A DNA stretch of 14,395 bases from Desulfobacterales bacterium (GTDB taxonomy: Bacteria; Desulfobacterota; Desulfobacteria; Desulfobacterales; Desulfobacteraceae). Positions 8,075 through 8,561 of the stretch are shown in pieces. The notes below the pieces were generated by a model. It made no database searches. It was not told the DNA's origin and saw only the letters and a list, made by a program, of their open reading frames with translations. The position numbers and the translations under genes are program-made. The DNA is taken from positions 1 through 14,395 of the forward strand of contig JAKSAU010000753.1 in the NCBI GenBank assembly GCA_022361535.1. Direction: 5' to 3'. Every line of letters begins with the position of its first letter. Position 1 is the stretch's first letter.

Positions 8075-8218
8075 TTATCCGGCAACGTCAATGCCTAAAT
8101 CACATCCAAGGTGCTCATCGGGATTCTCACATTCAAAGTTGCTGCTACGTGTATCTACATGGCCTTCGTTTCTTTCTTTATCACTTTCAATGTAGCTTTC
8201 TACTTTATAATCTGTCAT
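8075..8218 (-). CDS. Small acidic peptide, copy 1 of a tandem pair (47 aa)
   Basis: This is an unrecognised peptide of 47 aa. It begins MTDYKVESYIESDKERN, has a polar middle, and ends HLGCDLGIDVAG. It is strongly acidic (13 Asp/Glu against 4 Lys/Arg) and has two cysteines (Cys30, Cys39) separated by eight residues. It lacks a Sec signal and a membrane helix. The start is supported by GAGGTG 5 nt before the ATG. It differs from copy 2 only at residue 3 (Asp/Glu) and residue 21 (Val/Ile), while the codons have diverged. A terminator-like hairpin and then an ABC ATPase gene follow. Possible roles are an exported signal or antimicrobial peptide, a modified-peptide (RiPP-like) precursor with a C-terminal core, or a small cytosolic metal or regulatory protein. 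That it is translated is well supported; its function is not known. Confidence 0.82.
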   Translation of the reverse strand: MTDYKVESYIESDKERNEGHVDTRSSNFECENPDEHLGCDLGIDVAG

Positions 8219-8298
8219 TTTATCACCTCTTATTTGTCATTTGATTTGCTGTTTTGTAATTCTCTCTAATACTTTTATCTTCAAGACTCTGCCTTTTT

Positions 8299-8442
8299 CT
8301 AACCTGCGACGTCTATACCAAGGTCACATCCCAGGTGCTCGTCGGGATTCTCACATTCAAAGTTACTGCTACGGGTATCTATATGGCCTTCGTTTCTTTC
8401 TTTATCGCTTTCAATGTAGCTTTCTACTTTATATTCAGTCAT
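8299..8442 (-). CDS. Small acidic peptide, copy 2 of a tandem pair (47 aa)
   Basis: This is the upstream, first-transcribed member of the pair, also 47 aa. It begins MTEYKVESYIESDKERN and ends HLGCDLGIDVAG followed by TAG, whereas copy 1 ends in TAA. By codon-by-codon comparison the two reading frames differ at 17 of 144 bases. Fourteen of these changes are synonymous, one is in the stop codon and two are conservative replacements, so the protein has been held constant by selection since duplication. The ribosome binding site and spacer (GAGGTGATAAA before the ATG) are the same as in copy 1, while the rest of the leader is different. No terminator lies in the 80 nt between the copies, so they are probably co-transcribed. 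The function is unknown, as for copy 1. Confidence 0.82.
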   Translation of the reverse strand: MTEYKVESYIESDKERNEGHIDTRSSNFECENPDEHLGCDLGIDVAG

Positions 8443-8490
8443 TTTATCACCTCGTTGTTTGTTTTAGAGTGCTGCCCTGTTTGGCATTTG

Positions 8491-8518
8491 ATAATAAGTT
8501 AGCCACAATAAACAACAA
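8491..8518 (-). promoter_or_regulatory. Possible promoter for the peptide/ABC operon
   Basis: On the minus strand TTGTTG (8518-8513) and TATTAT (8496-8491) are spaced by 16 nt, about 50 nt upstream of the first peptide. The boxes are only moderate matches. This 119-nt gap is the natural place for a promoter, because the gene upstream is of a different type. A weak ATAGTA/TACTAT inverted repeat (8548-8565) spans the stop codon of the upstream gene. Confidence 0.4.
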
Positions 8519-8561
8519 ATCAACATGGGTGTGTCGAGGGTTTTATGATAGTAAAAACCTA

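Follow-up and report, generated by a model that had tools for sequence, protein, structure and literature searches.

What is the role of two nearly identical 47-residue frames that precede an ABC/FtsX/lipocalin cassette, and do they belong to it? An earlier note, made from the letters alone on the 14,395-nt stretch of DNA analysed here (the window), had described two 47-codon frames, each with its own GAGGTG ribosome-binding site and ATG, and had suggested a peptide with a dedicated exporter. Both frames are present on the minus strand, the first copy at 8442–8299, where it is backed by homologues and pN/pS, and the second at 8218–8075, where it is backed by codon comparison. The GAGGTG sites, read in the sequence at 8448–8453 and 8224–8229 of the same strand, lie five bases 5′ of the ATG in both copies and have similar counterparts at other loci. 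The two proteins are identical at 45 of 47 residues, differing at positions 3 (E/D) and 21 (I/V), and the note was correct on both the C-x8-C spacing and the terminal GCDLGIDVAG. Downstream on the same strand, again as described, follow a LolD/FtsE-like ABC ATPase (8011–7337) whose scores fall short of the curated NCBIfam cut-offs in the models shown, a double FtsX permease recognised by profile matches (7340–4755) and a CrtC/Lipocalin_9 protein (4741–3551), assigned by computed Pfam matches, which we take to be AttH-like.

The similarity within the pair is far above chance, and in the DNA the copies sit in a repeat of 154 nt (90%, spacing 224). Fifteen codons differ between them, 13 synonymously (pN 0.026, pS 0.51), and because roughly half of the synonymous sites have diverged while 45 of 47 residues were kept, both copies are under selection as proteins. 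The window protein is strongly acidic, with a pI of 4.2 and a charge of about −9, and by-eye inspection revealed no signal peptide or double-glycine leader. Its AlphaFold2 structure model is weak (pTM 0.24, pLDDT 71), and the window contains no Rfam match. Elsewhere in the window, at 904–1605, lies a DUF5714 protein (PF18978) with a cysteine-rich N-terminal part.

Database comparison makes the window peptides members of a large unnamed family of small proteins from Desulfobacterales and their kin. A single-copy query against 5.77 billion proteins returned 81 homologues at E ≤ 0.001, the best at 7e-24, and a 50-row profile gave 1881 matches, the best 120 of which were given individually. The family consensus is MxENxxEDYxExDxERNEGHVDTRxxNFECENPDxHLGCDLGIDVAG, with 11 positions that never vary in alignments of either 50 or 100 proteins (G19, H20, N27, D34, L37, G38, C39, G42, D44, V45 and G47) and a C-terminus that is fixed through its last residue as LGCDxGIDVxG. 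Exceptions to the near-invariant residues affect C30 (P0063), C39 (L075) and H20 together with D44 (L071). Scanning a single genome for each species yielded 86 relatives, the best 80 of which were kept and fall into 79 loci, giving 80 loci with the window. The relatives are filed as Desulfobacterales and kin or as undefined Deltaproteobacteria, bar one Bacteroidales contig; the peptide and unit of this sole fetched relative under that name (L060) resemble the Desulfosarcina type, and its filing is likely a binning error. Of 291 genomes sampled from one class, many of them draft contigs whose ends may break some links between peptide and lipocalin, 71 carry the acidic peptide at E ≤ 0.001; among 395 genomes of the phylum, three carry it at E ≤ 1e-5, each of them part of the class sample as well. 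Sixteen whole genomes, chosen because they carry the acidic gene, hold one to eight matches each, some of them fragments.

Over the 80 loci we counted 97 copies above 60 bits, arranged in tandem at 11 loci, after removing from 100 domain rows two spurious ones (<1 bit) and one truncated 45-bit fragment (L053). Codon comparison indicates that the acidic proteins are under purifying selection: the median pN/pS is 0.29 across 4186 pairs among 92 copies, and for 33 copies of the same length the ratio is 0.23 in frame vs 1.47 and 1.35 in the other two frames. Two copies are decaying with their hairpin still recognisable, one with the acidic gene split across two frames (L112) and one with both cysteines changed (L115). 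The earlier note knew of no described family with such a C-terminus; in the profile libraries there is no Pfam or PADLOC match for 50 family members and no NCBIfam match for the two window copies. Two PHROGs families each matched one member, at non-significant E values of 0.024 and 0.055; a PDB search by sequence returned nothing. We also considered a mobile or phage origin and rejected it, as the acidic protein matches nothing from phages or plasmids and the 21 pattern-matching stretches on viral contigs encode no relative. A literature search confined to open PubMed Central text, thus outside subscription papers and sequence supplements, found nothing on the family; as listed there, a general small-protein catalogue (PMC11364881), a lipocalin-fold structure relevant to PF07143 (PMC2954199) and a goat-feeding study (PMC11582046) contain no description of it.

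The acidic loci are usually predicted to be self-contained units consisting of a promoter, one to three acidic genes of 44–47 aa and a terminator. A promoter-like TTGnnn-TAnnnT pair, defined by at least 7 of 12 consensus bases, lies upstream of 57 of 77 first copies vs 7.4 expected from base shuffles; the spacer is 16 in 50 of these 57 pairs, the −10 ends a median of 55 nt before the ATG, and none of 14 internal tandem copies has such a pair. In the window, a possible sigma-70 promoter, TTGATT-16-TAACTT (8496–8523, minus strand; 7/12 by hand count), occupies the position seen at other first copies. The script's best pair in this upstream region is an overlapping TTGTTG-16-TATTAT (8/12), and a stricter consensus scan of the window, requiring 9/12, listed no promoter upstream of the first copy.

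At the other end of the predicted unit, between the second peptide and the ATPase, lies a 10-bp hairpin resembling an intrinsic terminator that was absent from the earlier note. It reads GCAGAGCCTC-TTT-GAGGCTCTGC followed by CATCTTTTTG, occupies 8053–8031 on the minus strand, and was found both by a hairpin scan of the window, in which shuffles average 0.5, and by comparison with other loci. T-tailed hairpins of 10 bp occur within 360 nt after the last copy at 70 of 80 loci, compared with frequencies of 26/207 for other genes and 21/160 for random windows. Under stricter scoring within 150 nt they follow 33 of 83 last copies and none of the 14 copies in other positions, and are seen in 2 of 240 random windows, with one minus-strand copy (L056) omitted from this count and from the upstream-site comparison.

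The stem sequence of this putative terminator is itself conserved and nearly private to the acidic family. Across loci of several genera it commonly takes the form GGCAGAGCCTC/GAGGCTCTGCC or one close to it, and the Desulfotignum and Desulfoluna loci have different stems. The exact stem pattern occurs at 20 sites in 8 of the 16 whole genomes, compared with one site for the reversed control pattern. At 17 of these 20 sites a peptide copy lies upstream within about 320 nt; the remaining three (G004 C1:368871, G009 C142:3940 and G013 C13:76211) showed no acidic gene. Family-like hairpins with no acidic gene found nearby were also seen at L110 941–965 and L111 912–935, and are possibly remnants or chance occurrences. 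The 5′ arm of the hairpin also appears on its own, as a GGCAGAG element, and is read in the window at 8287–8293 on the minus strand, after the stop of the first copy. Of the 14 non-last acidic copies, 8 are followed by such a bare arm, as are 13 of 23 stops of the membrane ORF described below, vs 12 of 823 other gene ends. As read from the sequence, GGCAGAG can pair with the 3′ arm of the hairpin, and it could possibly exert control at the RNA level. Whole-region RNA folding gave no signal at the two loci scored (z −1.58 for L048 and −0.01 for the window), and a stem sequestering the ribosome-binding site around the membrane ORF was considered with alignments and set aside.

Beside the acidic gene we newly found a second ORF, which encodes a predicted membrane mini-protein with two cysteines. 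At 23 of 80 loci an intact hydrophobic ORF of 26–31 aa with a ribosome-binding-like site follows the acidic gene, as at L048:10154–10243 and 22 further loci; these ORFs were chosen by eye, and two degenerate ones (the second copy in L038, and L070) were excluded. Their consensus is MIGxxLTLIxLGYFINxCxA...CK(I/L/V), with the cysteines spaced C-x8-C, or C-x9-C in the 30-residue members. The median pN/pS is 0.49, and for 12 members the ratio is 0.46 in frame vs 1.04 and 1.20 in the other frames. With a predicted helix at residues 3–20 (pLDDT 74, pTM 0.32), the mini-protein is expected to span the membrane once. The 16 whole genomes contain 23 matches to it at E ≤ 1e-3, 22 of which adjoin an acidic copy or remnant; 14 of the 23 came from the profile set and are adjacent by choice, and of the other nine, eight are adjacent. 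One mini-protein ORF, ending CIDGASTCKI, stands alone (L113, reverse strand, G008 contig 67), where the absence of an acidic gene covers roughly 360 nt up to the contig end. The ORF was recognised neither at the window locus nor at 56 others, making 57 of 80 loci, and 6 of the 16 genomes with an acidic gene (G001, G003, G005, G011, G012 and G015) have no confident match.

How, then, does the family relate to the cassette that adjoins the window pair? The window's genes resemble an AttEFGH-like cassette (PF00005, PF02687, PF07143+PF17186), and the earlier note had suggested that the adjacent ABC/FtsX transporter is a dedicated exporter of the peptide or otherwise works with it, and that the lipocalin-like protein is a processing, binding or immunity partner; homologues occurring mostly without these genes were among the observations that it had named as speaking against this. 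Such homologues are largely what we found. The FtsX permease and lipocalin lie downstream of the peptide at only 5 of 80 loci, although 12 of the 80 have less than 4.7 kb of downstream sequence and a few cassette links could be missed. In the 291 class genomes, with cut-offs of E ≤ 0.001 for the peptide and E ≤ 1e-20 for the lipocalin, 71 carry the peptide, 74 the lipocalin and 43 both, and the two are neighbours by coordinates in six, i.e. in 6 of the 71 peptide genomes; the lipocalin occurs without the peptide in 31 genomes and the peptide without the lipocalin in 28. The six neighbour genomes hold the six best-scoring relatives of the window lipocalin (55–60% identity), and the cassette next by score, in G001, whose lipocalin is 56% identical, has no peptide upstream of its ATPase. 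A terminator-like hairpin, moreover, separates the peptides from the ATPase. On these linkage counts we reject the exporter and immunity model as the core of the acidic family, which mostly lives without the cassette and, taken as a whole, is not dependent on it by these comparisons.

The tie to the exporter does hold in part within the window's clade, where order and spacing are kept. The ATPase adjoins the peptide in seven records besides the window, and the order peptide, hairpin, ATPase is found in 8 of 8 linked records with 64–116 nt from peptide to ATPase (the window, L002, L003, L005, L016, L118, L119 and L121; L003 is the same contig as L120 and was counted once). Peptide and lipocalin also co-occur in genomes above chance (odds ratio 9.4, p 1e-13, with phylogeny not controlled). 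In the window only 19 nt separate the hairpin from the ATPase ATG, which leaves little room for a separate promoter, so that transcription may pass the hairpin and enter the cassette, and leaky read-through is plausible in this clade. At linked loci the initial T run of the hairpin tail is shorter (median 0 vs 2, p 0.014 uncorrected), but the count of T in the first eight tail bases is alike at linked and other loci (p 0.63); a weakened terminator in linked loci was thus indicated by one of two measures and was not adopted. Because order and spacing are conserved in the linked records, we retain the exporter model as a clade-level possibility, while as an explanation of the peptides we regard it as distinctly improbable. 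A toxin–antitoxin-like pair, in which the mini-protein would be a membrane toxin restrained by the acidic protein or by the GGCAGAG/CTCTGCC RNA element, would fit the near-constant adjacency of the mini-protein to an acidic gene, including eight of the nine matches outside the profile set, as well as the several dispersed copies per genome, some of them decayed (L112 and L115), and the repeated RNA element that is able to pair with the terminator's 3′ arm. Type I toxins of the TisB/Ibs kind are short hydrophobic peptides, and the mini-protein resembles them in being tiny and hydrophobic, present in several copies and close to an RNA element, but differs in being paired with a more conserved acidic protein and in having no mobile-element link that we could find. 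An antitoxin gene should not usually stand alone, yet the acidic gene lacks a recognised intact mini-protein at the 57 loci noted above, the acidic protein is more conserved than its would-be toxin (pN/pS 0.29 against 0.49) and finds no counterpart in PADLOC or on phages and plasmids, and one mini-protein is itself alone (L113); we consider this arrangement unlikely. The fixed C-terminus, down to Cys39, Asp44 and Gly47, and the many genomes with several copies of one core could also befit a precursor or carrier peptide that is modified by an enzyme encoded elsewhere, in a RiPP-like or ubiquitin-like use of Gly47. A RiPP precursor would be expected near its enzyme, however, and neighbour genes at the 80 loci, grouped by similarity from frames of at least 80 aa, include no recurrent modifying enzyme. 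In the 16 genomes the nearest YcaO gene is about 55 kb from any peptide, and proteins with CxxxCxxC are not enriched near peptides (5/315 within 3 kb vs 8/454 at 3–10 kb). Among the radical SAM matches listed for these genomes, one (G006 6415114) is on the opposite strand some 0.8 kb away from a peptide, a proximity that we take as chance. A precursor role, too, seems to us to have little probability.

The explanation that we tentatively favour, at somewhat less than an even chance, is that the acidic protein is a two-cysteine protein of the cytosol with a role at the inner membrane, in part with the mini-protein as its partner, and that the locus is a unit of its own. As no signal sequence is visible, we place the acidic protein in the cytosol, where it would remain and from where it would serve the inner membrane as a small regulatory or scaffold subunit. 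Its fixed C-terminus, LGCDxGIDVxG, may dock onto the mini-protein or onto a complex in the membrane, and the two near-invariant cysteines may bind a metal or form a thiol switch; the cysteine pair of the mini-protein would likewise bind a metal or sense the redox state. Copies lacking a mini-protein gene could make joint use of a partner that is produced elsewhere, or could contact that same complex without an intermediary. In the window's clade, some read-through from the unit may reach the ABC/FtsX/lipocalin cassette that it precedes, which would be an added link and not the core function of the family. Counting against this reading are the weak model of the acidic protein, the many loci at which the mini-protein ORF went unrecognised, the six genomes without a confident match to it, the lone L113 ORF and the rare members in which invariant residues fail. 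A more specific version, in which the two cysteines of the acidic protein and the two of the mini-protein would combine at the inner membrane into a four-thiol site for metal or redox chemistry, in a lineage-wide module of sulfate-reducing Desulfobacterales adjusted through copy number and the GGCAGAG RNA element, strikes us as quite speculative and would need considerable luck to be right.

Two further known proteins offer partial parallels to this proposed subunit and its partner. Like Blr (PF24673/NF033231), a small single-helix membrane protein, the mini-protein has one main predicted helix, and 1 of its 23 members matches Blr at a non-significant E of 0.02; we know of no two conserved cysteines or acidic partner gene for Blr. 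DsrC of sulfate reducers has a two-cysteine C-terminal arm, and the acidic protein also has two cysteines in its C-terminal part and occurs in sulfate-reducing bacteria. Its C-x8-C spacing and fixed motif set it apart from DsrC, and the likeness is a lead only, with any sequence relation covered by profile searches alone.

The family described here is large and strongly constrained, with its 1881 profile matches lying in bacteria relevant to the sulfur cycle, and it is without a name in the profile libraries searched. With up to eight matches per genome, a nearly private terminator and a hidden membrane partner ORF, it presents a concrete, testable unit, and it illustrates how the gene order of a single window can point to an exporter link that is absent from most genomes.
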